DNA from: a virus
Virus record (IMG/VR): IMGVR_UViG_3300031251_000040
Span: 1-45,861 of that record
Length of the DNA stretch: 45,861 nucleotides
Direction: 5' to 3' (one strand)
How positions within the stretch are numbered: position 1 is the stretch's first letter; every line of letters begins with the position of its first letter. Below are positions 15,343 to 39,637 of the stretch, in pieces. The notes beneath the pieces are model-generated. The model did no database searches and was not told where the DNA came from. It was given only the letters and a program-made list of their open reading frames with translations. The position numbers and the translations under genes were made by a program.

Positions 15343-15507
15343 TTAAGATAACGCTGCAACCTGCTTTTGCAACTGAGTGACTTGATCTTGCAGGGTTGAA
15401 ATCAAGGAATTTAGTTGGTTTATATACGCCTGTGCCTTCTGTAATTCGGACCTTTGTGCGTCTAAATCAAACACATTAAAATTAATTGCTAGACTAGGAT
15501 TACTCAT
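15343..15507 (-). CDS. 54-residue coiled-coil protein
   Basis: A short frame between nozzle and adaptor genes. The ATG at 15507 overlaps the nozzle stop (ATGA, 15504-15507) behind a GGGGGAGG site, and TAA is at 15343-15345. After a short start (MSNPSLAINFNVFDLD) the rest is a regular heptad coiled coil (QLNSLISTLQDQVTQLQKQV). Leu and Gln dominate, and there are no Cys or Trp. Conserved spacing and coupling argue for a real gene. It may be a minor tail component or assembly chaperone, which is a guess. Confidence 0.7.
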   Translation of the reverse strand: MSNPSLAINFNVFDLDAQRSELQKAQAYINQLNSLISTLQDQVTQLQKQVAALS

Positions 15508-18500
15508 TTATTACCTCCCCCACCTTGATCGGAGCTATAGCCTCTATATTGCGAGCCAAGATTTCCTTGCTCTTCAAACCAGATGGTAAGTGCGTCTAAA
15601 GAGAAAGCTTGGTCTTTCATAAAGCCTCTAATTTCCCACTGTAGCGCCAATAATCCGTTAACTTTATTAGTTGCATCATTTACAACTAACATCGTATTCC
15701 CAGAATCAACATAGGTGCTCACAACTAAAAATTCAGTCGAGTAGTTATCTGTTGCAAAACAAATAGACATTCTTTCGGTATCGGTTGGAAGTATTGTCCC
15801 TACCATCCGTAAAGTAGTTTTGCCCCCAGTATTTGACACAAAAATAGGTACATTCGGATAAGTGTCAGAGTTATAAACGGTAAATCTACCATTTTTACAA
15901 CCAATTTGGTATAAGTCAGCCCGTAATTTCTTACCGCCAACTCTGCGCCATTGGTCTACGTTTCCTTGACCCCCATCGTCAATAAAACGCATAGGTGCTA
16001 AATTTTGAGTAACTACGTTATCTGCGCAAATATAGTATTGGATTGCCACATCACCACGATTTTTACCAACGTGATGAATCCTTGAGAAAAACTTCCGCAT
16101 TGCCGTACCGCCAAAATCCATCATTGTAGAACGCCATTCCCATGGGACATAAGTAGTATCCCAGGTATTTGGGGGATTTAAAGTGTCCTTGTAAGGATCT
16201 GTCTTAGTACTATCATCCGTATTGTATAAATAACCATCGGTATCCCCAATAAAAAGATCATGCGTATAAAACGCAATAGCGCTAGGATTCCATGAATTAT
16301 CCGCGCCTACTAGGGTTGTAAAAGTACCTGATGGACCGATCCCAAAATTAATATCAAATACAAATAGAGCATCATTGTCAGCTGATCCAGACGAAGATCT
16401 TACTGACCAATACACTCTTCGATTAGTGCGATCATACGAACCTTTGATCTGACGTTTTTGCTCAGCGGTAATCGTAGCCCCACGATAAGTCACATTTCTT
16501 TCTTGAGAAATCCTAAAACACTCGTACCCATCGGTGTAATAAAAACCATTTGTAGCAGCAAAGAAAAGTCCGATATCCGTAACTACAACTGAGGCTCCGT
16601 TGATACCTCCAATTTTATTATGGATTTGTTGTTTAACAATAGCTCCTGAGCCATCTAACCCAAAAGCCCCTTCTAAACGATATACTCCAGTTTCCGTTAA
16701 ACAAACGTTAACGTTCCTAGCGGCCCCGCCCCCAACTACTGGAGCATCGAAGTCTACAAAGTTTTGTGAAGGCACCCAATCTGGCGCTAATTGCACCGAT
16801 TGTAATACTCGGTAGGGTAGATATGTGTCACCATCATATACTCCAGCATAATATGCGTAGTCATTAGCCTTCCATAGGTATTTAGATTTAGTGGGCGTGT
16901 TAGAAGGCGTTACACCGCCATTGGTGTACAGAATGTCTTCTGAAGTATCTAAAGGGATATTCCCATTGATAGCGTATACGTCGGATACTAGGTCATAATC
17001 ACCTAGTAAATTGATTGTTTTTGGGACCGCTGGGATAACCAAAGGTGTTGCGGCTAATGTATTGATATGGAAATACGAAGTTCCATTTCCAAGAGTCCTA
17101 TACGTATTTAATAAAATATTGTTCGAATAATTAGTAGTAGAATCGTTAGTTAAAGGATCGGCTCCCAATAGCATAGCTACTGGAGTAACAATTTGATTAA
17201 TTAGATAAACGGATGTCTCACCATACATCTGCTTAACGACACCCACTGCTAGTGTCTCTTCTGAGTTTACTGGGTCAGAGAATATTGGTGCGGATTCAAC
17301 CTTATAGCTTACCCCTGAATTAATTGTATAAGTATCAGAATAAGTCCACGCATACCCATAAGACTTAATCTCAGGAATTATAAATTGAGGCTGTGCTCCC
17401 GGTAAATTAACTGTAGGTAAAAGAGAGCTTAATGGAAAGTATTGAACACCTCCCGCAGGATAAGTTTGCCCTGGCGGGGTTGGCTGAAACTCTTGGAAAG
17501 CTGGGGTTGTATGGTAATGCACATTTGGGTCAAGCTCATGCGCTTTGAAAGCATCGTAAAATCCTTCGATTAGAGGGGTCCATGACGCTAAATCATAAAT
17601 GTCTGGCGCGTATCCAAAACTAGTAAGATTTTGAGAAGTCTCAGCATATCCTGAATACGAGGAATTTGAAGTCAAAATCCCGTAAGGATGCATTACGAAG
17701 GAGCCCAGTGACACAACAGTTGAGTTCGGGAATAGCCCTGTATTGTAATTTGTCGTGTAGTTATTGGAGCCTGTATACGCCAAAATGCCGTTAAATGATC
17801 TCTTCTTAGTTAAAGTATCAATAGCAACTTGATACCCAGATTGTAAGATTTGACCTTTTACGCCTGTGGTGACAGTAGGGATAAATACGGCGTTAGCTCC
17901 TGTAGCTGTCGCCGTACCTTTATAAATCTGGGCACCTTGGTAAAGATCGAGATTATGAATAAAATACGCATATCGCGCATTAAAAATTAAAATTTTCGCT
18001 AAAATTACGTCCCATGCAAATGCAGTGTATTGCTGTCTTACTGTAGGATTTGATGGCAATTGAGCGAAATAATAACCCGCTGCCTGGAGGCCGCTAACAA
18101 TTGATGAGTTGCTGGTGGCGTGCATTGTAGGGAAAGATGCGTCCAAAGAACTAGGAATATCAGTGTTATTAGCATGGTTAGTAAAAGCCCTATTTGTAAA
18201 ATTTGCTGCGTATATAAAATTAAAAGGCGTTGAAATAACGACAGGTACTTCGCTAAGTAAAGGTGCTAAAAATTGGTACGAAAATGCTGCATCTACAAGA
18301 GTATTTCCTTGTGCATTCTGGTAGTTATAACGGTGTACGAAAGGAGCAGTTTCATGCAGGGCAAATTTTACTGCAAAATCGTCTAAAAACTTAGCAATTT
18401 GAATTAGCTTAGTTCTATATACTTTTGACTCATCAATACTAGCGTTAATAGCACTATTTGGGTCAGGGTTCTCCACTACTCGCTGCTGAATGCCTTGATT

Positions 18501-19439
18501 CATTGGTTTGGCATACAAATTAATAAAACCACTACCATAAGGAAAACCAAAGTTAGTTGTACCATCAGTATACTGCGATTGGTACCCAAGTGCATGGTAG
18601 CGGTTAGGGCCTGAAATTAAGCTAGAAAAGCCAGAGTCGCTAATTGAGGCGAATCCTGCGCTATCCTGGCGATGTTCCTCAAATGCAAGATTTAAAGCCT
18701 GAATAAGAGTAACAAGGCTATTATAATCAGTAGCGGCGGGAGCTGGGGTTGGAATGGTGTTTGGTTGCCACTGTCCTGTGGTAAAAGAAACTGATGTAAG
18801 GTAGCATTTTGCATATTTATCAATGCTCCAATGGGCATTAGTTGAAGTAACGGGTTGCTCAGTTGTAATTGAATAGGCTGGCGATGTACCGTCGCGTTCA
18901 GAGTTTGTATTTTCTGCTGAATTAATATGGGCTAAAAAATTTGTTCTTAAAGAATTTGCAGCAGCTATACACGCATTTAAAAGATCCGAATCAGTGGTTA
19001 TAGGTGTAGTTACTTTTGGGAGACCGATTTCTCGAACTTGATAGTCACCATTTTGGTCGATATAAATTTTTTGAGGCTGTAAAATTTCGTCACATGACAA
19101 AAGCAAATGCCCCTGCATTTCGGCAGATGTATATACTGCTTGGTCGGTAGCCCCTACAAAAGCAATATTTCCTGAAGGCCCAAAAATTTCAGTTCCATCG
19201 ATCTGGTAGAAATGACCTTCGCTAGAGTATACTAGATCCTCATAACTATTGAAAGTTTCAATAGAGTTAATTCTTGAAGTTTTTTTGGCGTTAGGCTGAA
19301 CTAAAGTCCCAGGTCTGGAATAGGTTTTATGGTCGATACCAATTAAGAGATTAATTAATTTTTGGGCGCGGTTCGGCTCTCCTTGAAAATAGTTATCCGT
19401 TTCTCCACCGCTAAAATCTTTAATCTCTAATGGTTTCAT
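15504..19439 (-). CDS. Tail nozzle (tail tubular protein B-like)
   Basis: 1311 residues from the ATG at 19439 (AAAGGTGG in place). A GTG at 19445 would add two residues. The start KDFSGGETDNYF...LINLLIGIDHKTYSRPGTLV is the typical opening of podovirus nozzle proteins, with a Gly-Gly-x-x-Asp and an Arg-Pro-Gly-Thr motif. The C-terminal third has beta-propeller-like repeats (VCLTETGVYRLEG, IGLFFAATNGFYYTDG, DALFVFDINFG). It should form the hexameric tube or tip below the adaptor. It is longer than T7 gp12 (about 800), the extra part being Tyr/Asn-rich, largely beta, and possibly receptor-related. There is no signal peptide, unlike the fibre-like genes upstream. Confidence 0.75.
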   Translation of the reverse strand: MKPLEIKDFSGGETDNYFQGEPNRAQKLINLLIGIDHKTYSRPGTLVQPNAKKTSRINSIETFNSYEDLVYSSEGHFYQIDGTEIFGPSGNIAFVGATDQAVYTSAEMQGHLLLSCDEILQPQKIYIDQNGDYQVREIGLPKVTTPITTDSDLLNACIAAANSLRTNFLAHINSAENTNSERDGTSPAYSITTEQPVTSTNAHWSIDKYAKCYLTSVSFTTGQWQPNTIPTPAPAATDYNSLVTLIQALNLAFEEHRQDSAGFASISDSGFSSLISGPNRYHALGYQSQYTDGTTNFGFPYGSGFINLYAKPMNQGIQQRVVENPDPNSAINASIDESKVYRTKLIQIAKFLDDFAVKFALHETAPFVHRYNYQNAQGNTLVDAAFSYQFLAPLLSEVPVVISTPFNFIYAANFTNRAFTNHANNTDIPSSLDASFPTMHATSNSSIVSGLQAAGYYFAQLPSNPTVRQQYTAFAWDVILAKILIFNARYAYFIHNLDLYQGAQIYKGTATATGANAVFIPTVTTGVKGQILQSGYQVAIDTLTKKRSFNGILAYTGSNNYTTNYNTGLFPNSTVVSLGSFVMHPYGILTSNSSYSGYAETSQNLTSFGYAPDIYDLASWTPLIEGFYDAFKAHELDPNVHYHTTPAFQEFQPTPPGQTYPAGGVQYFPLSSLLPTVNLPGAQPQFIIPEIKSYGYAWTYSDTYTINSGVSYKVESAPIFSDPVNSEETLAVGVVKQMYGETSVYLINQIVTPVAMLLGADPLTNDSTTNYSNNILLNTYRTLGNGTSYFHINTLAATPLVIPAVPKTINLLGDYDLVSDVYAINGNIPLDTSEDILYTNGGVTPSNTPTKSKYLWKANDYAYYAGVYDGDTYLPYRVLQSVQLAPDWVPSQNFVDFDAPVVGGGAARNVNVCLTETGVYRLEGAFGLDGSGAIVKQQIHNKIGGINGASVVVTDIGLFFAATNGFYYTDGYECFRISQERNVTYRGATITAEQKRQIKGSYDRTNRRVYWSVRSSSGSADNDALFVFDINFGIGPSGTFTTLVGADNSWNPSAIAFYTHDLFIGDTDGYLYNTDDSTKTDPYKDTLNPPNTWDTTYVPWEWRSTMMDFGGTAMRKFFSRIHHVGKNRGDVAIQYYICADNVVTQNLAPMRFIDDGGQGNVDQWRRVGGKKLRADLYQIGCKNGRFTVYNSDTYPNVPIFVSNTGGKTTLRMVGTILPTDTERMSICFATDNYSTEFLVVSTYVDSGNTMLVVNDATNKVNGLLALQWEIRGFMKDQAFSLDALTIWFEEQGNLGSQYRGYSSDQGGGGNK

Positions 19440-19492
19440 ATCCACCTTTCAACGCGAGCCTTGTGCTCGGGGGTTTACGCCGTTCTTATAGT

Positions 19493-19774
19493 CTACGGTT
19501 TTACCGGGGTTTTGCAAGCACTTACAACGTCATGCACCCAAATTTCCTTAATAGCTATATCCTCTGTTGAAAAGCAAGCATAGTTGGAAATATCTACATT
19601 TTGACCGTTAAATCTTCCTGTACTGCCGGGTTGTGCCACTACCGCTAAAACAATAGGTTTAGTTGGCAAAACTGGGGGTGTGCATGCAATTGGCGCAGAC
19701 ACACAACTTTGTAATAAGAAGCTAAGAATTGATAAGCGAATTAAGAGCATCTTGAGCCGCCTGTCTTTCTTCAT
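19493..19774 (-). CDS. Putative o-spanin lipoprotein
   Basis: 93 residues. A basic n-region (KKDRRLK), a hydrophobic core and the lipobox LLQSC predict an outer-membrane lipoprotein with Cys at about residue 23. The mature part is Pro-rich and contains three more Cys. Its 5' end overlaps the preceding membrane-coiled-coil gene by 53 nt in another frame, the usual Rz/Rz1 arrangement. In lysis it would join inner and outer membranes. An alternative start lies at 19750. It lacks sequence identity to known spanins that I can see, so the call rests on architecture. Confidence 0.6.
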   Translation of the reverse strand: MKKDRRLKMLLIRLSILSFLLQSCVSAPIACTPPVLPTKPIVLAVVAQPGSTGRFNGQNVDISNYACFSTEDIAIKEIWVHDVVSACKTPVKP

Positions 19775-19925
19775 CTGTTTTCGCGGACTTTACTTTGAAG
19801 GCTGCTTCACGAATATCAGTAGCAAACTTTGCGTTGTCCTTATTAGCCTTTGCGACAATCCAAACGAACCACAGACCTACAAGGGCTGAAAGTCCACCAA
19901 AGATTGTCGCAAAATTAGCTAGCAT
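19722..19925 (-). CDS. Putative i-spanin (membrane-anchored coiled coil)
   Basis: 67 residues. One transmembrane segment (about 4-25, Gly/Leu/Trp/Val-rich) is followed by a Lys/Asp/Glu/Ala-rich coiled coil (KVKSAKTDEERQAAQDAL). This is the layout of an inner-membrane spanin subunit, though shorter than classical Rz (about 150). The next gene, a lipoprotein, begins within it. The alternative is a holin-like accessory protein. Both belong to the lysis cluster at 19493-20982. Confidence 0.5.
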   Translation of the reverse strand: MLANFATIFGGLSALVGLWFVWIVAKANKDNAKFATDIREAAFKVKSAKTDEERQAAQDALNSLINS

Positions 19926-19928
19926 AAA

Positions 19929-20246
19929 TTACGCCTGAATCGCTTTCACAAGGTTGTAAGCAGCTACAGCGGCCTTTAATGACTTGTCGATAACATCCGC
20001 AGCGTGCTCGTTGGCTACACCTTTAGCTACAACAAATGCAACTAGATCCGCAACCATTGCGTCATCCATTGTTGAAAGTTCTGTTAAAACCTTTGGAGCT
20101 GCTCCGATTGCGGGTTCAGCGGTTTGGTAAAGAGGCAAAATATGTGCCGGAAATCTCTCTGGGTGAAAACCACCTTGGAAAACATCCTTCGTATTATAAA
20201 GTTCAAAACCAAATGCTAGTACTGCTTTAATATTAGTATCGTTCAT
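19929..20246 (-). CDS. Hypothetical protein in lysis cluster
   Basis: 105 residues, Ala-rich and mostly helical (DDAMVADLVAFVVAKGVANEHAADVIDKSLKA-like pattern, with hydrophobics every 3-4 residues), suggesting a four-helix bundle. No signal peptide or clear transmembrane segment. The ATG overlaps the stop of the two-helix membrane gene (20243-20246). Similar small Ala-rich proteins are found near phage lysis genes but their role is not known to me. It could be a holin regulator, which is inference. Confidence 0.6.
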   Translation of the reverse strand: MNDTNIKAVLAFGFELYNTKDVFQGGFHPERFPAHILPLYQTAEPAIGAAPKVLTELSTMDDAMVADLVAFVVAKGVANEHAADVIDKSLKAAVAAYNLVKAIQA

Positions 20247-20431
20247 TTTCTAATCTCCTTTATTTTAATTACCACGAATAAAATTGTAGCCAAAATCATC
20301 CCTACAATAAACAAAACTGGACCACAAGCTCTACGAGCATATTTAGCAGCCGCAATTTCTATAGCTAAATAAATTATCGCTGCTACGATGTACATGGTCT
20401 GGGCATGCGTTAAAGTTGGGATAGTAGGCAT
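20243..20431 (-). CDS. Putative holin (two transmembrane segments)
   Basis: 62 residues. Hydrophobic segments at about 13-31 and 36-57 are separated by a short basic turn (KYARRACG), and the C-terminus is basic (KIKEIRK). This is the size and topology of a class II holin, which forms membrane lesions that trigger lysis. It is encoded directly after the DUF5675-like protein. A second small membrane gene at 20815 may act as antiholin or vice versa. The assignment is by architecture. Confidence 0.6.
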   Translation of the reverse strand: MPTIPTLTHAQTMYIVAAIIYLAIEIAAAKYARRACGPVLFIVGMILATILFVVIKIKEIRK

Positions 20432-20434
20432 ACA

Positions 20435-20818
20435 CTATCTATCATGAATGACAATTGTAATTTTATCAACAGGCTTTGTTAGCTCCATGAATTTATCAAA
20501 AGCGTCCCTGCTTCTTACGAGTTCAAGACCTTTATCAAAGTCAGGTTGAACGGCCATTCCAAGGGCAATACACCCCAATAATTGATCTTGCCAGTTTGCT
20601 TTATGGATCTCAATATTTGTTCTTCCAGGAACATCTTTAAGTCTCCATACAATGTACCCTAAATGAGGAGAATCATACCGCTCGCATTCGTATTCTCCGG
20701 CAGGAATGATCATGTCGGTACGTTCCATAGTCGAGCATATAATAGCGCCGTTTTCATCATTTAAAGTGCCAAAACAACCTGCTTTCCCTTTATCACCCCG
20801 TTCTACAAAAAATTTCAT
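20435..20818 (-). CDS. DUF5675-like protein, possible cell-wall enzyme
   Basis: 127 residues from the ATG at 20818, coupled to the previous stop by ATGA. A longer frame to 20944 has no ribosome site and lies inside the upstream gene. The pattern GTLNDENGAIICSTMERTD, IPAGEYECERY, VPGRTNIEIHKAN and LGCIALG matches what I know as DUF5675, found among lysis genes of many phages. The His...Gly-Cys pair recalls L,D-transpeptidase-type active sites, so peptidoglycan action is plausible but unproven. No classical lysozyme, amidase or endopeptidase is visible elsewhere, so this is the best endolysin candidate. Confidence 0.7.
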   Translation of the reverse strand: MKFFVERGDKGKAGCFGTLNDENGAIICSTMERTDMIIPAGEYECERYDSPHLGYIVWRLKDVPGRTNIEIHKANWQDQLLGCIALGMAVQPDFDKGLELVRSRDAFDKFMELTKPVDKITIVIHDR

Positions 20819-20982
20819 TTTTTTACTCCGTTCAAAATATCTAGCTTTTCTTCGATTCGATCTAAGCGCGGAACGACTTCTCGGTAAGTTGCAAAAGTCG
20901 CGTGCGCGTAAGTAATCGCAACCGAAACTATTCCAATTGCCCACATTAAAAGCTCTGCTGTTGTTGCGCCTTTTTTATTCAT
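20815..20982 (-). CDS. Small membrane protein, holin or antiholin candidate
   Basis: 55 residues from the ATG at 20982, immediately behind the TGA of the 661-residue gene (TGATATG). A GTG at 21000 would lie inside that gene. One transmembrane segment (about 10-28) is followed by a coiled-coil tail (YREVVPRLDRIEEKLDIL). This N-in/C-out layout occurs in small phage lysis and superinfection proteins. It heads the lysis cluster and is followed by the DUF5675-like gene with a 4-nt overlap. Confidence 0.6.
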   Translation of the reverse strand: MNKKGATTAELLMWAIGIVSVAITYAHATFATYREVVPRLDRIEEKLDILNGVKK

Positions 20983-20983
20983 A

Positions 20984-22969
20984 TCATTTTGACCCGTCAC
21001 AAGTTACATAAAAAGCATCTGGCCCTGTACAAGCCGAGGTTGTTCCCCCTGTTTGAGACACACATCCCAGTGTCACAGAAGTAAGTGAGACTACGCTAGC
21101 ATTAGCTGAAACTACAGCAGTTGTAGTAGTTCCCGCCCAACTTGCATTACAAGTCAAATTCCCAGAAGTAATGCCTGTCGCTAAAGTTAAAGTGCATCTA
21201 TTACCCGAAATATTTGAAATACTTGTGAGCCATGCACCACCTTGAGAATTAATTGTAGAACTTGATCCACAAGTAACAACTGCTCTGCCGTGAAATTCTA
21301 CACCTGATGAAGGCGATTGGATTGAGCCAACTAAAATTGGATTCGGAAAGCTCGCAGCAGCTTGCAAGATCGACCATGAGATAGCCGCGTCCCCCGCAAA
21401 GTTAGACCCAACATAGGCAGTCACCGCGCCACTGTCGGAAGCGAGTCTTACTTTGATGTTTGGACTCGCCGTAGATGGCGTGTAATACCCGCATAGCGTT
21501 GCTTGCGAAGGGGCGTTATTCGCCGGGGATGTTAATGATTTTTGAGGACTAATTACAGTATTAGAGCCATCTGTAAGTTGAACTAAAGTCGAATGACCAG
21601 AAGTCGTTTCCCAGGCCTCTACAGTGGCGCAAATGTAATAAGGAACGCCTAGTTGAGGAAATGTAGGGGTAATTCCCATGCCAGACCCGCTCATTGTAAC
21701 AACTGAAGGAAAGCCCGTGTTTTGGCCTTGGTTCAGCGTAATACTTGAACCGTTTGTCGGATCGGTTAAAGTCGTGCTCGTAGTATTCCATCCACCAGTA
21801 TTGCCTGAAGTAGTTGTGTGGTAGCCCGTCCAAAGCGCTGGCCGAGTGTTTGGGTTTGCAACTTGAGATCCGGCGGTTGGATAATACCAAACCCGAATGA
21901 CTAAAGGCTCTGAAGAAGTACCATAAATATTTACTGTACCCGCCGAATCTGTTTTTCCATAAATCTGGAAAGTTACAGAAGAGCTTTGTGGGGTAGTGTA
22001 ACTGATGCGGCCGCTGATATTAGGAGCACCTACGGACCCACCCGCGCTATAAACTTGAGAAACTTCAGAAGCGTTATTTGTTCCGTCAGTAAACTGAAAG
22101 TACCCTACTTTGCTTGCGACGTTTTGATAGAATAGGCCTTCGCCTTCAAGTTTGAAATCTCCTTGCGGCAACGAAGCAAATTTAATGGCTGGTAAATTTG
22201 AAGACGGTTGTTGAGCGTTTCCGTAAGTAGTATACGTACATCCTGACTGAGTGCCAAACGCTCCAAATGAGGTTCCAGTCGATGCAAAAGGTGACGCGCA
22301 ACCGCTAATTAAAACAGCGCCCCAAAGCTGAGCTTGATTGAATGCACCAATGCCAGTGCTTTTACCAACGTACGTGTCGTCAACGAATACGTTACCCGTG
22401 CTCGAAGAAGTCGCTTTGACTTTGATTCCTAAAGTCGAACCGTCTGATCCCAGCATTGTCGGTGTGATCCGAGTGTAGTTTCCAGTTGAAGGAACAGGAA
22501 TGCACTGAACTTCTACGCCACCTGATAAAGAACAGACTTGGATCGTAGTCAAAGTCGTTGCGATTGCAACGCCCGCTTGCCAGTTAATACCTGTAAGCTT
22601 TCCAGTTGGAGTAACGTTCTGGACAAGCAAGTCTCCGCTTTGCGCTGAAAGCGCAAGCTTCATAGCATTCACGCCAGCACCCGCAAGAATCGTTGAGGTC
22701 TCTTTAGACGCTGTAGAGTTTGTTACTGTCCATCCCGTTGTGTAGGTCGAATGCTCGAAACTAGGGTTTACAAGAAGGTTTCCGTTTCCTGTCTCAATTA
22801 ACCGAGTACCTGCTGCCGTAGTCGTAAATTGGCTTGAAGGCGCTTGCAGGTTAAAAGTTACAGTTTTTGATGCTTCGCTTTGACTTGTGGCCGTAGTCGG
22901 CGGCAACCCCGCAAAAGCTTGTGTGCTGATTAAAAGCCCAAGTAAAATATGTTTTAGATAATTCTTCAT
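20984..22969 (-). CDS. Secreted fibre-like / carbohydrate-binding protein
   Basis: 661 residues. Residues 1-20 are a Sec signal peptide (basic start, hydrophobic core, AFA cleavage before Gly). A region at about 65-200 begins NLLVNPSFEHSTYTTGWTV, the usual opening of a carbohydrate-binding jelly-roll module. A second beta-rich domain follows, and the last 100 residues hold many cysteines in spaced pairs (TCGSS, NRCTL, LTCNAS, LGCVS, SACTG, VTCDGS), consistent with disulfides formed outside the cytoplasm. It sits between capsid and lysis genes, where tail-fibre genes are expected, yet virion proteins normally have no signal peptide. It could be exported for late assembly or coat the host. The ATG follows AAGGGGA. 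Confidence 0.7.
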   Translation of the reverse strand: MKNYLKHILLGLLISTQAFAGLPPTTATSQSEASKTVTFNLQAPSSQFTTTAAGTRLIETGNGNLLVNPSFEHSTYTTGWTVTNSTASKETSTILAGAGVNAMKLALSAQSGDLLVQNVTPTGKLTGINWQAGVAIATTLTTIQVCSLSGGVEVQCIPVPSTGNYTRITPTMLGSDGSTLGIKVKATSSSTGNVFVDDTYVGKSTGIGAFNQAQLWGAVLISGCASPFASTGTSFGAFGTQSGCTYTTYGNAQQPSSNLPAIKFASLPQGDFKLEGEGLFYQNVASKVGYFQFTDGTNNASEVSQVYSAGGSVGAPNISGRISYTTPQSSSVTFQIYGKTDSAGTVNIYGTSSEPLVIRVWYYPTAGSQVANPNTRPALWTGYHTTTSGNTGGWNTTSTTLTDPTNGSSITLNQGQNTGFPSVVTMSGSGMGITPTFPQLGVPYYICATVEAWETTSGHSTLVQLTDGSNTVISPQKSLTSPANNAPSQATLCGYYTPSTASPNIKVRLASDSGAVTAYVGSNFAGDAAISWSILQAAASFPNPILVGSIQSPSSGVEFHGRAVVTCGSSSTINSQGGAWLTSISNISGNRCTLTLATGITSGNLTCNASWAGTTTTAVVSANASVVSLTSVTLGCVSQTGGTTSACTGPDAFYVTCDGSK

Positions 22970-22978
22970 GTTATCCCC

Positions 22979-24100
22979 TTATTGAGAAATCCACTGTACA
23001 TCATAGTTTTGAGTACCTGATTCCGCTACAATTGAAACGTTTGCTCCACATGGTACAAATCCCGTATCACGACCTGGTTGAAGTTGTTGACCAACTGAAT
23101 TTGTGGCCGTTCTTCCAATAGCCCATCGAACGTTTGCAGTAGACGTGTCCAGGTTCATTAAGATAAATCCTACCGCATTTGCGGGGGCAGTTAAAGTCAC
23201 AACTGTAGAAACAGTGGAAGCTGTACCTGACCCTGTTGTGTTAATTGTTGTTTTTCCAAATGCAGTGTTTGAAACTGGTACGGCAATTCCCGATGAGTTA
23301 CCCTGAATAGTAAGTGCCTGAGAATTTGAAACCCCAGCCGTAGAGTCCATCGACTGCCCAGTAGAGCCAACAATACCTACGCGTTGAACACCCGAAGTTG
23401 CAGACACAACTGTTGAGCCATTAATTTGCGCAAGATTCATTGCGGGAGTACCAGAAACCGTTACTGAACCATTTACAGGTACGGCAACACCGGACGCGCT
23501 ACCTTGAACTGTAATAGCAGTTGCCGCTGAGGCTCCCGGCGCACTTTGTACGTTGGTTTGATTTGCCGCTGTGGATGCTCCAGTTGGCAATGGAAGTGAA
23601 GCAGCAGAAACGGTTAAAGCTGATTGATCCGAAGCAATAACAACCGGAGCAGACCCGGCCATTGTCTTTTGCCCAAGAGTACCTAATTTTCCATCAATTG
23701 AACTTAATGAAGTATTTCCAGTAGTTTGAAGAGCTGAAGTCGCGGCACCGCTTGGTAACGGGAGTGATGCGACTGTAACTGGAATAGCACTTTGGTCAGA
23801 GGCAATAACTACTGGTGCCGAACCTGACATTGCCTTCTGTCCAAGAGTACCAAACTTTCCATTCAAAGTAGAAAGTGTAGCAAGTAATGTCGCCCAATTT
23901 GAATCATTATGAGCATCAATAGTACGTAACTGTCCATTTACATCAACTTGAAGTTGAGATGTGGCACCATCACTTAAAGTGGGTAGTGATGAGTTATAGA
24001 CACCAACTTGATTAAAGTTGTTGATAGAGAAAGTTGGAAAATAGGCGGCATGAGCTGTCCCTGAAAATAACAAAAATAAGGCTAAAAATTTAATAAACAT
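22979..24100 (-). CDS. Secreted fibre-like protein with internal repeats
   Basis: 373 residues. An N-terminal Sec signal peptide (about 1-18, cleavage after AHA) is followed by two copies of a 46-residue element (about 80-125 and 137-182), each containing GTLGQK, GSAPVVIASDQSA and ASLPLP. This VVIASDQS element is familiar from many phage structural proteins. The rest is Thr/Ser/Ala/Val-rich, beta-type, ending in a small domain with NLDTSTANVRWAIGR. It is probably a trimeric fibre or surface protein. It overlaps the end of the upstream gene by 11 nt. It is the second of three consecutive signal-peptide-bearing proteins. Confidence 0.7.
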   Translation of the reverse strand: MFIKFLALFLLFSGTAHAAYFPTFSINNFNQVGVYNSSLPTLSDGATSQLQVDVNGQLRTIDAHNDSNWATLLATLSTLNGKFGTLGQKAMSGSAPVVIASDQSAIPVTVASLPLPSGAATSALQTTGNTSLSSIDGKLGTLGQKTMAGSAPVVIASDQSALTVSAASLPLPTGASTAANQTNVQSAPGASAATAITVQGSASGVAVPVNGSVTVSGTPAMNLAQINGSTVVSATSGVQRVGIVGSTGQSMDSTAGVSNSQALTIQGNSSGIAVPVSNTAFGKTTINTTGSGTASTVSTVVTLTAPANAVGFILMNLDTSTANVRWAIGRTATNSVGQQLQPGRDTGFVPCGANVSIVAESGTQNYDVQWISQ

Positions 24101-25262
24101 ACCATTGGCTCCCTACTGAAATTAAATTAACTTGTTCTCTATCTGGCAATAATCCCCAATCATCCTGCCCATCAATTTTCTGACCTGTCATATTATGGAA
24201 AATTGCATTTGCGCTTCCAATATTTTTCATAGCAATCTTATACCCAGAAGTAGTTGTTGTATCTGGTAGATTAACTTGGCATTGAGTGGCACAATTAGCT
24301 AAAATAAAGATGTCAGAAGCATTAGGTGTATAATCAGTTGTAATGGTAATAGTTCGGCTACCCGATACTGGCATACACGCGATACCAGAGCTAACAAAAT
24401 TTCCTTGAGCATCGAATACGTAACAAAAACCGGGCACAATAGGAGAATCATCAGTATTTACCAGGGTTTTATGAGTACCTGTACGATCCCATGGCTCAAT
24501 TTTATTATCATGAGTAAAACCAGCGGGCTTATCACTACCCTGGGCCATATAGATATCTGGAGCGTATAAAGCATGGGTATTATAGTCGTATCTAAGATAT
24601 GCGTCTCCCGCAAAATTCCCACCTGCACCTTTGTATTGGACCGATTTATCATACCCGGCTGCCTGCCCTACTGGATTACCAGTATCTTCTAGGTCTCCAT
24701 TTGTACCAATCTTTACACCATTACCAACGGTCCAACTACCATTCGCGGTGGCAAATTTAGTAGTTATACCTGTCTTTGTGCCCATTGCTGGCACACCAGT
24801 ACCTTGCCCAATAAGTGGATTGCCTGTAGAAAAAGTCGTATTAAGTGACCCCGCTGAACCTGTGGTATTTTGGTTAAGCGTAGGCACATCGGCTGCAACA
24901 ATAGAACGTGGGGATAATGCTCCTGTCGAGCCATTTGGAGAAGCTAAAAATTTATTGGGGGATTGAGAAGGTACGGCCAACCCTAAAGTTCCTGAGGTTG
25001 TGATCGGTCCACCCGTACCAACTAACCAAGAAGGAGTGCTACCCCAACCAACGCTAGTAACAGTCCCACTACCTCCACCTCCCCCGCAGGATGTTGGGGT
25101 AATCGTTCCAATGGGGTCAACTACAAGGCATGCAGTACCACTAGAAGGTTTGTTGGTCGGTAAGTACAATGCATTATTATCATTTCCCCAAATAATTGGC
25201 CCTTGCACTGCCGCAATCGCTTGGCTGTACAAGAGTATAAAAAGGATTAAAAGTTTATTCAT
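24090..25262 (-). CDS. Secreted fibre-like protein
   Basis: 390 residues. Residues 1-18 form a Sec signal peptide (AIA/A cleavage). A Gly-rich linker follows (SCGGGGGSGTVTSVGWG), then a Ser/Thr/Gly-rich shaft with GTGGPITTSGTLGLAVP, a motif common in phage fibre shafts, and a C-terminal beta domain (YKIAMKNIGSANAIFHN, then QVNLISVGSQWYVY) of the type that ends tail fibres. The start is coupled to the upstream 108-residue gene (ATGA). It is likely a host-recognition or surface-exposed protein. The signal peptide is the odd feature. Confidence 0.7.
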   Translation of the reverse strand: MNKLLILFILLYSQAIAAVQGPIIWGNDNNALYLPTNKPSSGTACLVVDPIGTITPTSCGGGGGSGTVTSVGWGSTPSWLVGTGGPITTSGTLGLAVPSQSPNKFLASPNGSTGALSPRSIVAADVPTLNQNTTGSAGSLNTTFSTGNPLIGQGTGVPAMGTKTGITTKFATANGSWTVGNGVKIGTNGDLEDTGNPVGQAAGYDKSVQYKGAGGNFAGDAYLRYDYNTHALYAPDIYMAQGSDKPAGFTHDNKIEPWDRTGTHKTLVNTDDSPIVPGFCYVFDAQGNFVSSGIACMPVSGSRTITITTDYTPNASDIFILANCATQCQVNLPDTTTTSGYKIAMKNIGSANAIFHNMTGQKIDGQDDWGLLPDREQVNLISVGSQWYVY

Positions 25263-25585
25263 TGCGTAACCTCAGTAAAAAGGTTGATAACAATAAACCC
25301 ATTTGTGATGTCTGTATCAACTGGTTTTAATGAAATTCGAGAAGCAGCAGGAATTGCTTGTGCCACTGCGCCATTAGTCCCTCCTCCCATTACAGTGTAA
25401 GGAAGGGCTTGCTCCTGACCATTCGGCCCTACCGCGACTTGAATAGGTGTAGTGCTTCCATTGTATACCTCAAAATATGCAGCGGCATATAAAAGTGATG
25501 ATAATACTTCGGTCCACTGTGTATGGAGAAGATTTAACGTAGCGGCATTGACTACAATTGATTTTACAGGAATTTTAGTCGTCAT
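25259..25585 (-). CDS. Small beta-rich virion protein, decoration or cement candidate
   Basis: 108 residues, no signal peptide, predicted mostly beta strands (SIVVNAATLNLLHTQWTEVL, FEVYNGSTTPIQVAVG, RISLKPVDTDITNGFIVINLF). The pattern 'vyNGsttPiqvavg' with Gly-rich loops resembles small phage decoration or fibre-base proteins. It is placed 60 nt after the major capsid gene, separated from it by a hairpin, and coupled to the first secreted fibre gene. A head-decoration role is inference. Confidence 0.6.
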   Translation of the reverse strand: MTTKIPVKSIVVNAATLNLLHTQWTEVLSSLLYAAAYFEVYNGSTTPIQVAVGPNGQEQALPYTVMGGGTNGAVAQAIPAASRISLKPVDTDITNGFIVINLFTEVTQ

Positions 25586-25645: not shown

Positions 25646-27145
25646 TTAGCTGAACGCGGTTGCGTAGTTGATGCTGATGTCGCCCATTACGCCGCAGTAA
25701 CTTGGGCGTTCAAGGACGATATCGCCGTACAACGCGATATCCACAATGTACTGGTATCCAGTAACATCACGAGTAGTGAAATACTCAATACCATCTGGAG
25801 TTTTATGCTTACGGAACATTCCGTTAGAATAAAACTTAAGCGCACGCCAGTCGATATATGCAATCCAATCATCATTCATCTCTTGAATTCCTACGAATTT
25901 AAGAGTTTGAGAAGTTACTGAGCCAATTTTGACTTCAGTAAAGCCGTATTGAGATGCTTTGTAGCTGTTTGGGACCACGTTGAATGCACCTTTTGATGCC
26001 TCAACAATTGCCATTACAACCGCAAGGTTATTATACGACATGATAATATCGGTAGGGCGACCTTTACCGAAACGACGTGTCTGAGTGAAACCAGCGAAAC
26101 ATTTTTTCACTAAGTTAGTCGCGCTTGCACCTGAGCCATCAATATAGATAGCTTGAGTGTATGGATAGTTCGTTTTAAGAACTCCATAGATATACTGAGA
26201 CCCGGCCCCCGCTGAGGTACCTGACGCTACTCCGTAAGGGAAAAGCAAGTCTTTCAAGTTAGAGAACTGGTTAATTACAGAGGTAGCCACCCCTGTACCA
26301 GCACCCGCAACACCGTCAAGAGTACCATCCATATATAACTTGGTTGTATTCGCTGGAAGATCCCCAACGAGTGAATAGCCAGTTAATGGGGTGCCATCCG
26401 CAGTTTGTCGAGCAATTACACCCGTGAAATCAATCGGAGTAGTTAAACCGATATCAGACGTTAACACAACTGAACCAGCAGGTTGACCGCCAGAAGATGA
26501 GTTTACGTTGATCGTTTTAATGAATCCGTAGATTGGTTGAGTTCCGTGAGACGCTGCTGCCTCTGCTGCTGGAAGGTTGATTAGAACCTTCTGGCCAACA
26601 TGTAAGCGATCTGGGCGATCTACTAGAACGGTACCAGTTGTATCGGTTGTATGCGATACTGCTGCAATAACCTTACAATATGCTGGACCTTCAAGTAAGG
26701 CCGTCGAAATGTTGTACTTCATCACTTCCATGAAATCTTCTAAGTTATCTTCAAGAACATTCAAGAAGTTCAACTCAGAGAGTTTTCCGTGAACCATGAT
26801 ATCTTTGTGGTTAAAGATCAACGAACCCCAAGTCTCAGGCTGTACCAAGATCTGACCAAGCACGTAACGAGCTTGAGTGATTTGGTTCTGAGCAGTTAAA
26901 CCACCCATTTTCTGAGACGAAGCTTGAGCACCTTTGAAACGAACTGTTAACGGACCACCGAAGATACCAGAACCAGTACCTACTGCTTCACCGTTAGCGC
27001 TATCGCCTGTAGATGCGATCCATGAATCATCCTTATCAATTTGAGAAAGAATATAGTCACGTTTGACCATTTCTTCCTTGAAAAGACCATTTGGAGCAAA
27101 CTGTGCTAACATCGCACTAAAGTTTGCCTGTGTAGCGTTTGACAT
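25646..27145 (-). CDS. Major capsid protein
   Basis: 499 residues. Context decides the call: it is directly after portal and scaffold genes, has the strongest ribosome site in the operon (AAGGAGGG, 7 nt from ATG), and is followed by a hairpin terminator. The sequence fits a podovirus HK97-fold capsid protein: an N-terminal helical arm (NATQANFSAMLAQFAPNGLF), a long helix region NVLEDNLEDFMEVMKYNIST, central beta-rich segments, and a C-terminus with FYSNGMFRKHKTPDGIEYF. It forms the icosahedral shell on the scaffold. Confidence 0.82.
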   Translation of the reverse strand: MSNATQANFSAMLAQFAPNGLFKEEMVKRDYILSQIDKDDSWIASTGDSANGEAVGTGSGIFGGPLTVRFKGAQASSQKMGGLTAQNQITQARYVLGQILVQPETWGSLIFNHKDIMVHGKLSELNFLNVLEDNLEDFMEVMKYNISTALLEGPAYCKVIAAVSHTTDTTGTVLVDRPDRLHVGQKVLINLPAAEAAASHGTQPIYGFIKTINVNSSSGGQPAGSVVLTSDIGLTTPIDFTGVIARQTADGTPLTGYSLVGDLPANTTKLYMDGTLDGVAGAGTGVATSVINQFSNLKDLLFPYGVASGTSAGAGSQYIYGVLKTNYPYTQAIYIDGSGASATNLVKKCFAGFTQTRRFGKGRPTDIIMSYNNLAVVMAIVEASKGAFNVVPNSYKASQYGFTEVKIGSVTSQTLKFVGIQEMNDDWIAYIDWRALKFYSNGMFRKHKTPDGIEYFTTRDVTGYQYIVDIALYGDIVLERPSYCGVMGDISINYATAFS

Positions 27146-28298: not shown

Positions 28299-30485
28299 TT
28301 AGAATCCTTGGTTATTAGGTGGCGGCCCACCTACGTTTTGTAAAGATGCCGCAGTCCCGTAATACTGCGCTTCCTGTGCTTGAACGTTCTGCGGTAAAGA
28401 GTGCAGTTCTTGCAATTGTGTTCCTTGTGTAGTTAATTGTTCTTTAAGCCACATCAAAGAGTCATTAGGAATTTCTAATTTCATGCTCTTACCCTTAGGG
28501 CTAGTAGGATCAGTGACATAAATATCACAACGTACCAATGCCCCCGTTGTAGGAATGAAACCTTGTTCTGCACGTTGAATTTGAGCTTTTTGGAAAGCAT
28601 CCATTTGAACGTGGACTTGTAATTTTTGCTGATAGGACATTTGAACTTGTGGAGGAAGTAAACGGAAATCCGGCTTCTTCATACGCGCATTTAATCGTTT
28701 GATTGCATAAGGATGGTTATCTGATTCTGAAACCGGAGGCTGCTCTCCGCGATCAAGCGCAAGAATTTCATTGTTCATCACTTCATCATCAATAGTAAAA
28801 TCTGAAAAAATTCCTTTAAAGTTAGCAAAAGGCATTTCAGCCATCAATTTGCCAATATCTTCTCTCGATAATTGGCTGCCCACGTATTGAAGCATATGGT
28901 TAATAGCGATTTGCTTACCAAATTTATATTCGATATCATCAGACTGAGGTTCAATCTTTACCTCATATCCGCTAGGTTCCGTCTGCTTAAACTCAGCAAT
29001 GTTAATAGCTTCATTTTTACCGATTGCAGAAATAATGGCGTCATCCGGCAAATGAATACGGGCAAGCGCCATATAGGTCTCTACAAACTTCTTCATGAAG
29101 TTTTCAAATTTAGAAATGTAGCGCTGAAAGACTTTTTTCTTCGAGGCTGAGCGATAAAGTAAAATTGCTGGGTCTTGGATTTGCTCCGCTTTATCCGCTA
29201 AGTCATCGGGGATACCCATGACTTTGTAAAGCTCTTCGATCTGAGAAAGCATGTACTGAAGATATTGCTCACCTGAACGCCCTGGTAAAACTTTAGGGTC
29301 ATCGCCGGAAACAGAAATAGCACGAACCCCAGGCATAGCTCCACTAGCGGACATTTTAGAGCCATTCTTAATAATTAATTTATCGTCACCTAATGTAACT
29401 TGATGTTCTGCAATTTTTGATGCAGATCGATTAATCTCCACTTGATAAGGGCGAATTGCTTTAATTGGTGAACGACCGCGTGCAGATGTAGGTACTTCAT
29501 CAAAAAGTTCTGAAACGATTGGAAAAATACCATTCGGTAGTTCCCCTTGCGCTAGTACAACGTCACCCGTTGTAAAAATGAACTGCCCTCTAGGATACTT
29601 GATACTTGCTCGATAAAAATATTTTTTAACTAACGTCTGATTCTTTGCATAGCTATAACCACCTTGGGTTGCGTCAAATACGAGCATCTGAGACTCTGTT
29701 CCTTCGGAACGAATCATCTCTGCGCACTTAGGAAACATCTTCTTAAGTGCTTTAACATCTACCATTTCGCGAACACAAAGCCATTCTGCTTCGCGCAAGT
29801 CTTGGCAATCTTGTGGGCGAATAAGGTTAAAACCCATGATTTCTTGGAATATAAAACGACCACCAAACACAGGTTTGCTATCATCTTGAACGTACATGCC
29901 ATATTCATCAGTTACAGGCATTCCTGATTCATCAACTTTAGCTTCATACCCAATGAAATCGCCTGTACCTTCCTCATATTGAATAAGTACATGCACTTCT
30001 CCTACTTGAACAAAACTATCAATCCAACGATAGCGGTGTGCGGCTAAGTTATAGCGATTCCAGGCATCCATCCAAACAGCATGTTGAAGTTCTGCTAGTT
30101 TTTGATCCTGAAGACTATTTTCATCTTTAGGGGCAAATCCAACATTTGGCCCTGGGGCAAGAATATTATTTGAATAAAGGTGGCAAATACGGCGTGTATG
30201 GTTTTTTGTTAAACGAAGTTTTTGGGTCTCAGAAAGCTCACGATTATCCCGAATACGGCGATTAATAATTGATTCTTTTTTAATATAATGATCACCAGCT
30301 ACGAGAAGAAGGTTTGAACGCATTTCGGCAAAAATTGCTCTATCAGCACTCTCACCGTCGCGATACCCCATGTTCAAACGCGCAAGAAGTTTTTTGTCTT
30401 CACTGTTCTTTTGTTCCTTGGCGCGGTCTTCCTGACCTGCCATGTAGTCTTGCGCAATTTGTCCTCTGTAACTAGCAGTAATCAT
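28299..30485 (-). CDS. Portal protein (P22-like)
   Basis: 728 residues, the size of P22-type portals. Recognisable sections are an N-terminal NHTRRICHLYSNNIL segment, LIRPQDCQDLREAEW, a wing region, a long helix with QYLQYMLSQIEELYKVMGIPDDLADKA, and SASKKKVFQRYISKFENFMKKF followed by a Gln-rich C-terminal tail that may form the barrel. It makes the dodecameric vertex through which DNA is packaged by TerL. The ATG overlaps the stop of the upstream gene (30482-30485). A podovirus-type virion is deduced mainly from this protein and the nozzle/adaptor set. Confidence 0.87.
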   Translation of the reverse strand: MITASYRGQIAQDYMAGQEDRAKEQKNSEDKKLLARLNMGYRDGESADRAIFAEMRSNLLLVAGDHYIKKESIINRRIRDNRELSETQKLRLTKNHTRRICHLYSNNILAPGPNVGFAPKDENSLQDQKLAELQHAVWMDAWNRYNLAAHRYRWIDSFVQVGEVHVLIQYEEGTGDFIGYEAKVDESGMPVTDEYGMYVQDDSKPVFGGRFIFQEIMGFNLIRPQDCQDLREAEWLCVREMVDVKALKKMFPKCAEMIRSEGTESQMLVFDATQGGYSYAKNQTLVKKYFYRASIKYPRGQFIFTTGDVVLAQGELPNGIFPIVSELFDEVPTSARGRSPIKAIRPYQVEINRSASKIAEHQVTLGDDKLIIKNGSKMSASGAMPGVRAISVSGDDPKVLPGRSGEQYLQYMLSQIEELYKVMGIPDDLADKAEQIQDPAILLYRSASKKKVFQRYISKFENFMKKFVETYMALARIHLPDDAIISAIGKNEAINIAEFKQTEPSGYEVKIEPQSDDIEYKFGKQIAINHMLQYVGSQLSREDIGKLMAEMPFANFKGIFSDFTIDDEVMNNEILALDRGEQPPVSESDNHPYAIKRLNARMKKPDFRLLPPQVQMSYQQKLQVHVQMDAFQKAQIQRAEQGFIPTTGALVRCDIYVTDPTSPKGKSMKLEIPNDSLMWLKEQLTTQGTQLQELHSLPQNVQAQEAQYYGTAASLQNVGGPPPNNQGF

Positions 30486-30898
30486 GTTTCAAGTTCCTCT
30501 GGTTTAATTTCGCCTGCCGCAACCATATCTTCAAGCAATTCAGGATTAGTAAGTTTTAGTTCAGATATAAATTCTCTACGTGCTTCTTCTGCATCTTTCT
30601 GAATCTGAACGTCATTCTGTCTATCATGCTCTTCATTCGTAAGAACTTGACCGCGACTATGGTTGGCCTTCGGTTCACTTGTCCCAAATTCAACAAAAAG
30701 CCCTCCAAATCGTAGTGAGGAGACTTTAGTTTGAGCGCACTCTTTTAGGATATTGCATACGTCTTGACTAGTCAACTTATTCGAGATAGCTTGCCCATTC
30801 GTCAAGCTCTGATTGGATGTCCCAGTTCGATTCCTCGTCCTCCGGATTCTCCTGGTTGCCATCGATGAATTCCCTGCGTTCTCTAAGTTGTCGCTCAT
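30482..30898 (-). CDS. Small basic-then-acidic hypothetical protein
   Basis: 138 residues. The N-terminal 30 are Arg/Asn-rich (ATRRIRRTRNRTGT) and probably disordered; the rest is helical and acidic. No domain recognised. The ATG at 30898 has a clear AAGGAGAC site, so the start is well supported even though 122 nt overlap the 3' end of the terminase gene in another frame. Conserved position between terminase and portal suggests a packaging or head-assembly role, which is inference. Confidence 0.65.
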   Translation of the reverse strand: MSDNLENAGNSSMATRRIRRTRNRTGTSNQSLTNGQAISNKLTSQDVCNILKECAQTKVSSLRFGGLFVEFGTSEPKANHSRGQVLTNEEHDRQNDVQIQKDAEEARREFISELKLTNPELLEDMVAAGEIKPEELET

Positions 30899-32339
30899 AA
30901 TCTGTCTCCTTCTTTTTATTCTCCGGTTGTTTATCTACATCATCAAATGCCCAAGGAACCATCATTACTGCGTACCTTAGTGCGTCACAAAAATCATCTT
31001 TGGCATGCCGCTTATCCGTAAATGAATCAAGAGTAGCTAATTCATTGGCCAACTTCATTAGTTCGGGTGTATCGTAAATCTGTAGCATTCCCTTAGTAAA
31101 AAGAGTGTTAACAATACCAATCCCATCTTCCCGTTTCTTTATAGCTTTAGAAAAATGTACACCATTTCGTCCAGCAATCGTACCAAAGTCCGCTGCTGCA
31201 TAGTCATAGCAAGCTTGAGTAATAGATAGGTTATTCTTTTTAACTAGGTCTTGGTACTTATCAAATACATCTCCTGCAATAGTCTTAACCCCGTCCCCCC
31301 TCCATCCAAGGAATACGCGGCCCTTTGTATATGTCGGATCAACTGCAATAAAAGCGATAGCAGAGGGGTGCGCTGGCTTTTTCATCTTGCCACCGTCCCC
31401 CGTCTCATTTTCCTCGCCACCTGAACCAAGGTCTACCCCTGCGTAGATTAGCCAATCTTTCGGTACATTGTGGTGTGCCTTAACATTCGTGAGCATGTCA
31501 AAACCGGGATAGACGCGCCCCTCGGCTTTAATAAAACGCCCGTAGATACGCTTCTGTACCTCAGTCTCGTTCTTACAGAGAGAACGCATGTGCGCAATCC
31601 ACTCAAGAGTAATAGGGGATTTTCGGCCATCCACATACTCTAAGCAGTCATAGGCCGAAATAGTACGTTTCCACGCACCAACAAGGGCCTCTTCCTCCCC
31701 CTCGCGCGGCTCCATAGCTCGACGCCAGAAATCTTGACCCTTTGTTGCTGTAAACACCATACTGAAGTAACCTTTGGTCGCAGCAGTACGAAACATTAAC
31801 TCGTCGTATAGGTCTACGTCTAACTCCTCATCGCACCCTAAATAGTGTACTGATGCAGTCTGTAGTACGTCTGAACGTTGTGAGTAAGACTTAAACAGGA
31901 GTAAAATACCAGTATTAAACGAGATACCTTTATAGTTGATACCGTCTTTAATCCATTTCCACCCATACTGTGGGTCATCTTTCATTGGTCCTCGTGGAAG
32001 GAATTTAGTCTCCCACTTAGTCGCGCACTCTTGGTTAATAACGGGTTGCGAGGGATAGAGGTACCAGAATAAATTAGGCGTCTCATCCCATAGTCTAGGC
32101 CATAACGCTGGTTCTGTGGCCCAATGTATCATCTTACGTATTTGACTTGACGACTTTGATAATTGGTTACCTGCCGTTAGTAAGGCAACTTTGTTAGTTG
32201 TGTGTAGGAAGTCTAACGCCCATTCATACCAGCCGTAGGCATAGAGATGGGGAAGCATCTGCTCGCGCTGAGCAACTAGCTCCTCTGCTGCCTTTAATCG
32301 GTTGTAATGCGCAATAAGCTGTTCTCTAGTCTGTGACAA
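30777..32339 (-). CDS. Terminase large subunit
   Basis: 520 residues. The ATPase domain has a deviant Walker A (AGNQLSKSS, 56-64) and Walker B HYLGCDEE (165-172, catalytic Glu). The RNase H-like nuclease domain has D303 (AGVDLGSG), an Asp in CYDYAAADFG (379/384) and the HAKDDFCDALRY acid cluster (446-456). All are in the expected order, so packaging motor and DNA-cleavage activity are intact. The start is TTG at 32339 with AAAGGT about 7 nt upstream, overlapping the previous gene by 14 nt; the next ATG would remove 27 residues. The fold points to headful or podovirus-type packaging, not decided here. Confidence 0.92.
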   Translation of the reverse strand: MSQTREQLIAHYNRLKAAEELVAQREQMLPHLYAYGWYEWALDFLHTTNKVALLTAGNQLSKSSSQIRKMIHWATEPALWPRLWDETPNLFWYLYPSQPVINQECATKWETKFLPRGPMKDDPQYGWKWIKDGINYKGISFNTGILLLFKSYSQRSDVLQTASVHYLGCDEELDVDLYDELMFRTAATKGYFSMVFTATKGQDFWRRAMEPREGEEEALVGAWKRTISAYDCLEYVDGRKSPITLEWIAHMRSLCKNETEVQKRIYGRFIKAEGRVYPGFDMLTNVKAHHNVPKDWLIYAGVDLGSGGEENETGDGGKMKKPAHPSAIAFIAVDPTYTKGRVFLGWRGDGVKTIAGDVFDKYQDLVKKNNLSITQACYDYAAADFGTIAGRNGVHFSKAIKKREDGIGIVNTLFTKGMLQIYDTPELMKLANELATLDSFTDKRHAKDDFCDALRYAVMMVPWAFDDVDKQPENKKKETDYERQLRERREFIDGNQENPEDEESNWDIQSELDEWASYLE

Positions 32340-39626: not shown

Positions 39627-39637
39627 GGAGAAATCAA

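Follow-up and report, generated by a model that had tools for sequence, protein, structure and literature searches.

What would a tailed phage gain from signal peptides on the products of its virion operon? By the accepted view, tailed phages both synthesize and assemble their virion proteins inside the cytoplasm. In the window analyzed here (IMG/VR virus record IMGVR_UViG_3300031251_000040; 45,861 bases), three consecutive genes encode proteins of 390, 373 and 661 amino acids (aa) that each begin with a predicted Sec signal peptide. They are placed between capsid and tail genes, in a minus-strand virion operon that runs from TerL through portal, scaffold, capsid and a 108-aa protein to the 390-, 373- and 661-aa genes and on through a lysis-like cassette to a 1313-aa protein. 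The three genes are tentatively read, with slightly less than even confidence, as late Sec-exported glycan-binding adhesins of a Bdellovibrionota podovirus, which would most likely join the particles outside the cytoplasm at lysis. The strongest clue, missing from the original prediction that had been made on this locus from the sequence alone, is that the 661-aa protein holds the tip domain of the Bdellovibrio predation fibre Bd2734, within a phage lineage of Bdellovibrionota hosts.

The predicted signal peptides are MNKLLILFILLYSQAIA in the 390-aa protein (followed by A), MFIKFLALFLLFSGTAHA in the 373-aa protein (followed by A) and MKNYLKHILLGLLISTQAFA in the 661-aa protein (followed by G). 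All three N-termini have the n/h/c architecture of Sec substrates of signal peptidase I (SpI), with a positive n-region, a hydrophobic h-region and small residues at -3 and -1. Signal-peptide prediction, proposed as a check in the original prediction, was run with a rule-based scorer (a custom script, not SignalP) and was positive for all three, with scores of 14.7 (390 aa), 12.8 (373 aa) and 12.2 (661 aa), the highest among the larger open reading frames (ORFs) of the window. Shuffled N-termini reached the same score in 1, 29 and 14 of 20,000 trials, respectively. A Shine-Dalgarno (SD)-like motif stands 5-9 bases before each start (GAGG, GGGAG and AGGGG, in the same order), and each start overlaps or closely follows the preceding stop; for the 390-aa gene, this is the stop of the 108-aa gene (ATGA). 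The open frame of the 661-aa gene is 664 aa long and leaves hardly any space for an alternative start. Wrong start codons were ruled out by the SD motifs and frame limits, and chance hydrophobic N-termini by the shuffles together with the core-gene controls given below. The clear signal peptides claimed earlier for the three proteins, with AFA (661 aa), AHA (373 aa) and AIA (390 aa) cleavage sites, are therefore borne out by Sec scores, starts and shuffles. The same is true of the many C-terminal cysteines noted in the 661-aa protein, which has 12, with 6 in the last 100 residues; the 390-aa protein has 6 and the 373-aa protein 1.

Are such N-termini peculiar to this genome? About 85 related podovirus contigs with the same gene order (designated by L numbers) were gathered with portal and capsid alignments, and genes of at least 100 aa were counted in the variable slot between the capsid gene and the 1313-type (tail-nozzle) gene. 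Signal peptides were found in 39/251 slot genes (15.5%; 0.6% when shuffled), a few of which are small lysis-region genes resembling those for lipoproteins or spanins, compared with 0/357 core proteins (capsid, TerL, portal, scaffold and 1313-type) and 8/430 other ORFs. The slot proteins with a signal peptide are also richer in cysteine (0.92% vs 0.55% pooled, p=0.002). For the 390-aa gene, the signal peptide is kept in L002, and a similar protein with a signal peptide occurs in L003, the letters of the signal peptides being different. In the portal tree, the window falls within a supported group of nine, eight of them with signal-peptide-bearing slot genes; L091, in the same clade, is the row nearest the window. 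Over the whole portal tree the trait changes at least 8 times yet is clustered (0/500 shuffles gave as low a number). Judged from sequence, the signal peptides of the three window proteins are real features that are conserved in relatives, and an extracytoplasmic role is the best reading for the proteins that carry them. Of the loci seen, L044 (9869-16849) is the richest: five of its slot genes carry signal peptides (187, 179, 944, 529 and 120+ aa), and a gene of 156 aa has a weaker one.

Three slot families occur both with and without the signal peptide. The first is a cement-like family of 160-200 aa encoded right after the capsid gene, with a signal peptide in L003, L008, L011, L014, L022, L044 and L091 and without one in L090, L009, L024, L027, L054 and L079. 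The predicted structure of this 188-aa family (predicted local distance difference test score, pLDDT, 78) matches the cement proteins of Pam1 (Z 10.5), GP4 (Z 9.8) and KHP30 (Z 9.4), so that the family shows both marks of a cement protein, a jelly-roll fold and a gene following that of the major capsid protein (MCP). The second comprises S74 fibres, of which dozens of related proteins begin like 'MKVYxQLEKAQLEN'. Slot proteins of L033 and L036 are members of PF13884 that share the N-terminal domain of the fibres lacking a signal peptide, and their signal peptide ends exactly where the first Met of an ordinary S74 fibre would stand. The third is the 373-aa family, with a signal peptide in the window, L014, L031, L058 and L084 and without one in L034, L051, L070, L080 and L152. 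Since all three families occur in both states, the signal peptide is best described as an added N-terminal unit that has been repeatedly acquired or lost.

More can be said about function for the 661-aa protein. A monomer model (14-row alignment, pLDDT 70, predicted template modelling score 0.42) contains a carbohydrate-binding module (CBM), two TNF/C1q-like domains and a Cys-rich C-terminal domain. The CBM region gave a profile match to 2XOM (E=2e-4). Residues 213-363 match the tip of Bd2734 (Protein Data Bank, PDB, 8OKW) in sequence (phmmer E=8e-6; family profile E=8e-22) and in structure (Z 19.6, root-mean-square deviation 1.9 over 145 residues, 27% identity), and residues 210-541 of the model align with single-chain TNF-family/adiponectin trimers (Z 13). 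Bd2734 is an exported and surface-displayed mosaic adhesive trimer (MAT) fibre of B. bacteriovorus, and its deletion slightly slows predation on E. coli (PMC10769870). The full Bd2734 gene, recovered from a Bdellovibrionota genome, encodes 843 aa with a signal peptide and the tip at 692-827. In the 661-aa protein, by comparison with MAT fibres, the signal peptide and the Bd2734-type TNF/C1q-like tip are both present, whereas the ~130-aa N-terminal MAT domain is absent and a CBM occupies the N-terminal part instead; a phmmer search with Bd2734 residues 25-170 matched chromosomal MAT proteins only and no phage protein. Full MAT membership by the published definition was rejected for this reason: the 661-aa protein is predicted to act in the manner of a MAT tip adhesin, yet that definition does not cover it. 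Among the 20 viral members of the family having an N-terminus, 17 pass the signal-peptide rule and the other three are hydrophobic there by eye, the signal-peptide sequences being divergent. An alignment of eight members was too variable for scanning viral sequences, and a closer subset worked. The C-terminal domain also occurs alone in short (176-222 aa) exported Bdellovibrionota proteins (L136, L138, L139, L146 and L151).

Family searches were less informative for the other two proteins. No full-length similarity to characterized phages was found for any of the three, Pfam and PHROG scans returned no useful family match for them, and no relatives of solved structure were found for the 390- and 373-aa proteins. 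The 390-aa protein gave a partial match to a phage tail fibre in tblastn. The earlier description of the three as fibre-like or carbohydrate-binding thus stands for the 390-aa protein as fibre-like, by this match, and for the 661-aa protein as carbohydrate-binding, by its CBM fold.

The distribution of relatives points to the host. When the portal alignment was compared with genomes of 84,980 species, matches were obtained in two Bdellovibrionales metagenome-assembled genomes and one Acidobacteria bin; by phylum, portal relatives numbered 7/368 in Bdellovibrionota vs 1/396 in Acidobacteriota, the latter being the seed itself. No relative turned up in genome contigs when the MCP alignment was used. 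L091 (G001) sits as a prophage inside a 212-kb Bdellovibrionales contig; one end has a serine recombinase, and bacterial genes of metal-efflux type lie beyond (names from sequence). The 661 profile gave tip, C-terminal or near full-length matches in Bdellovibrionota and only the common CBM part in Acidobacteriota (9/357 genomes, all in profile 21-178); CBM-region matches alone are not specific, Acidobacteriota matching too. By these sequence comparisons, the phage lineage belongs to Bdellovibrionota hosts, and the window's own host is probably a predatory Bdellovibrio-type bacterium. A close relative, L090, with cement-type proteins lacking a signal peptide, comes from an Acidobacteria bin (contig CAILAZ010000305); the part read of this 30-kb contig looks wholly viral, and its bin-based host assignment is uncertain. 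A truncated portal gene of the lineage was also seen in a Bdellovibrionales chromosome contig (L092 7743-11583), followed by an AbiE-type toxin-antitoxin-like pair.

The 661 family extends to other phage types. Homologues with signal peptides were found in three prophages, one podovirus-like and distant (L152), one phi1422-like (L153) and one of tape-measure type (L108/L109), and each homologue directly precedes lysis-type genes. In the cultured bdellophage phi1422, gp68 (JQ177062, annotated hypothetical; 614 aa, signal-peptide score 13.8) lies between the tail fibre gene, which it directly follows, and lysis-like genes. Its match to the L153 protein is at 3e-26, and the L153 protein matches the 661 profile at about 2e-17; directly compared with the 661 profile, gp68 gives a weak match that is only suggestive (hhalign probability 60%). 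Like the 661-aa protein, gp68 has a strong signal peptide, an 'NPSAE' CBM-like start and a prelysis position, and the two are linked through L153; unlike it, gp68 comes from a contractile-tailed phage unrelated to the window, and no Bd2734-type tip was detected in it. A second exported fibre-like protein of phi1422, gp75 (L130 44298-44810), has 170 aa and a signal-peptide score of 14. Another bdellophage, phi1402, shows no large exported fibre gene of the 661 type, and no gene with a signal peptide was seen in the tail region read of Aeromonas phage 56, which belongs to the phi1422 morphotype group and has a non-predatory host.

How might exported proteins serve a phage? From these comparisons we infer export, cleavage, attachment to virions and a ligand, together with the window's own host. 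In the favored reading, the three proteins would be made alongside the capsid, exported through SecYEG, trimmed by signal peptidase I and folded in the periplasm, the 661- and 390-aa proteins probably with disulfides. As fibre or adhesin decorations of the particle surface, they would stay separate from the growing particles until holin/endolysin lysis brings the two together, and would then be added to them from outside. Where the predator is intraperiplasmic, the released proteins would remain highly concentrated within the closed bdelloplast, and the 661-aa protein would equip the particle with a CBM and a Bd2734-type tip binding surface glycans of prey or predator. Particle decoration is favored because cement-type and S74-fibre families gain the same signals, and because no fibre gene free of a signal peptide was found in the window (the 708- and 380-aa proteins have no fibre features and the 792-aa protein is a primase/helicase); any fibres would therefore be among the exported proteins. 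Of the roles suggested in the original prediction, late assembly outside the membrane thus fits best, given the signal peptides on the cement-like and S74 proteins of relatives, and no specific support was found for host-surface masking or superinfection exclusion. Several observations weigh on the other side. The cement-like family is absent from the window itself, and cement and S74 homologues free of signal peptides show that the cytoplasmic route also works for these two families. L113, L116, L117, L119 and L121 carry ordinary fibres without signal peptides plus one 661-type protein, and the 661 type therefore need not be a particle protein. Moreover, the 661-aa gene adjoins lysis genes, and the nearest solved relative of its product acts on the cell surface, not on virions.

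In the main rival reading, the three proteins would supply the predator with MAT-like adhesins, which would go to the surface or into the periplasm of the Bdellovibrionota cell, whether infected or lysogenic, and never join virions; the Bd2734-type tip and CBM would bind prey glycans or the bdelloplast and alter prey contact or handling to the phage's benefit. It would account for a tip domain in common with a surface fibre whose loss makes predation on E. coli slower (PMC10769870), for signal peptides throughout a 661 family common to three unrelated Bdellovibrionota phage types, and for the coexistence of the 661 type with ordinary fibres. We consider it unlikely, if a serious contender: absence of the N-terminal MAT domain leaves no known surface anchor, a late virion operon site directly before lysis genes fits release better than prey search, and the signal peptides on capsid-cement-like and S74-fibre proteins are left unexplained. 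A role in egress, or as secreted lectins, was also weighed, where proteins exported before lysis would help to loosen or coat the envelope of predator or bdelloplast, or would hide receptors to keep progeny from binding debris. Their constant place just ahead of the lysis cassette, seen in several phage types, agrees with this, as do CBM and TNF/C1q-like domains, which are typical glycan binders, but no hydrolase domain was found in the Pfam scan and the gain of signal peptides by cement and S74 fibre families is again unexplained, making such a role improbable. Superinfection exclusion, with exported proteins binding the predator's own phage receptor and blocking further infection, would make use of both the signal peptides and the adhesin-like domains; it is quite improbable given the late operon site, the large multidomain build and up to 5-6 exported proteins per genome (L044), unlike small exclusion proteins, and Pfam and PHROG scans found no homologue of a known exclusion protein. 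Finally, that the N-termini are not used as signal peptides, being a hydrophobic assembly or membrane-contact segment kept in the virion or a relic of host MAT-fibre genes, agrees with the departure of L115, L125 and L129 from the canonical form but is very improbable, since n/h/c architecture with AxA/AxG ends recurs across many unrelated families despite sequence divergence, such N-termini are found in 0/357 core proteins, and the signal peptide is cleanly added ahead of S74 fibres.

Several known systems come close to these proteins. Exported products of phage genes are known from the prophage-encoded lambda morons Bor and Lom; these are small proteins of the envelope and do not belong to the virion fibre module. 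The cement-like family of relatives resembles in fold the podovirus capsid cement proteins of Pam1, GP4, KHP30 and BPP-1, for which, to our knowledge, no signal peptide has been reported. The L033 and L036 proteins resemble ordinary Peptidase_S74-chaperone tail fibres in their PF13884 match and common N-terminal domain, and differ in the signal peptide added before the first residue; the S74 subgroup of MAT fibres in turn resembles them. With Bdellovibrio MAT fibres (Bd2734; PDB 8OKW; PMC10769870), the 661-aa protein has in common the Sec signal peptide, the same-family TNF/C1q-like tip and a phage-fibre-like character, whereas it is phage-encoded in a late virion operon, and its tip, unlike that of Bd2734, is internal, with the CBM before it and a second TNF-like and a Cys-rich domain after it. 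In a full-text search of open-licence literature, no account of tail-fibre or cement proteins exported by Sec was found for tailed phages.

Virion assembly outside the cytoplasm, if shown, would be categorically new. Fibre, adhesin and cement-like proteins with conserved Sec signals would either break the rule of cytoplasmic assembly or reveal predator phages that supply exported adhesins to their host; either way, they would link phage fibres with the MAT fibres that Bdellovibrio uses for prey recognition. The sequences suggest that surface adhesins are common to phage and predator and that these phage proteins have their role outside the cytoplasm of the cell. A general model, to which we give rather less than an even chance, is that tailed phages of predators send some of their particle-surface proteins (cement proteins, S74 fibres and MAT-tip adhesins) via Sec, with periplasmic folding and assembly onto finished particles at lysis inside the bdelloplast, and that phage and predator exchange adhesin tips. 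With cultured phi1422 and a laboratory predator at hand, the origin of predation fibres and their phage-borne spread become directly testable.

Table 1. Positions of the signal-peptide genes, their predicted domains and the landmark genes in the window.
Feature	Position	Strand	Remarks
TerL	30777-32339	-	
Portal protein	28299-30485	-	phrog_156; landmark for finding relatives
Major capsid protein	25646-27145	-	landmark; conserved position after scaffold; relatives L002, L003 etc.
108-aa protein	25259-25585	-	no signal peptide; between capsid and 390-aa genes
390-aa fibre-like protein	24090-25262	-	Sec signal; phage-fibre GTVTSV...TTSGTL repeat, fibre-tip-like C-terminus
Predicted signal peptide, 390-aa protein	25212-25262	-	residues 1-17; cleavage between AIA and A
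373-aa protein	22979-24100	-	Sec signal
Predicted signal peptide, 373-aa protein	24047-24100	-	residues 1-18; cleavage between AHA and A
661-aa predicted adhesin	20984-22969	-	Sec signal; CBM, two TNF/C1q-like domains, Cys-rich C-terminal domain
Predicted signal peptide, 661-aa protein	22910-22969	-	residues 1-20; cleavage between AFA and G
CBM-type beta-sandwich	22355-22804	-	residues 56-205; Z 14-17 to CBM61/CBM16/CBM4-type modules and phage tailspike domains
TNF/C1q-like domain	21881-22333	-	residues 213-363; homologous to Bd2734 MAT fibre tip
Second TNF/C1q-like domain	21356-21835	-	residues ~379-538
Cys-rich C-terminal beta domain	20984-21301	-	residues ~557-661
Lysis-like cassette	19493-21000	-	directly downstream of 661-aa gene; function inferred
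1313-aa virion structural protein	15504-19445	-	phrog_3287; landmark

The lysis-like cassette contains small membrane proteins, a 93-aa Rz1-like lipoprotein and a DUF5675/phrog_1501 protein (20435-20944, minus strand), the last being a candidate for a cell-wall function. Elsewhere in the window, adjacent plus-strand genes (37024-40345) for a 547-aa pentapeptide-repeat protein, a JAB-like 319-aa protein and a ThiF/E1-like 235-aa protein resemble a small ubiquitin-like or counter-defence module, and a similar 275-aa gene is present in L002.

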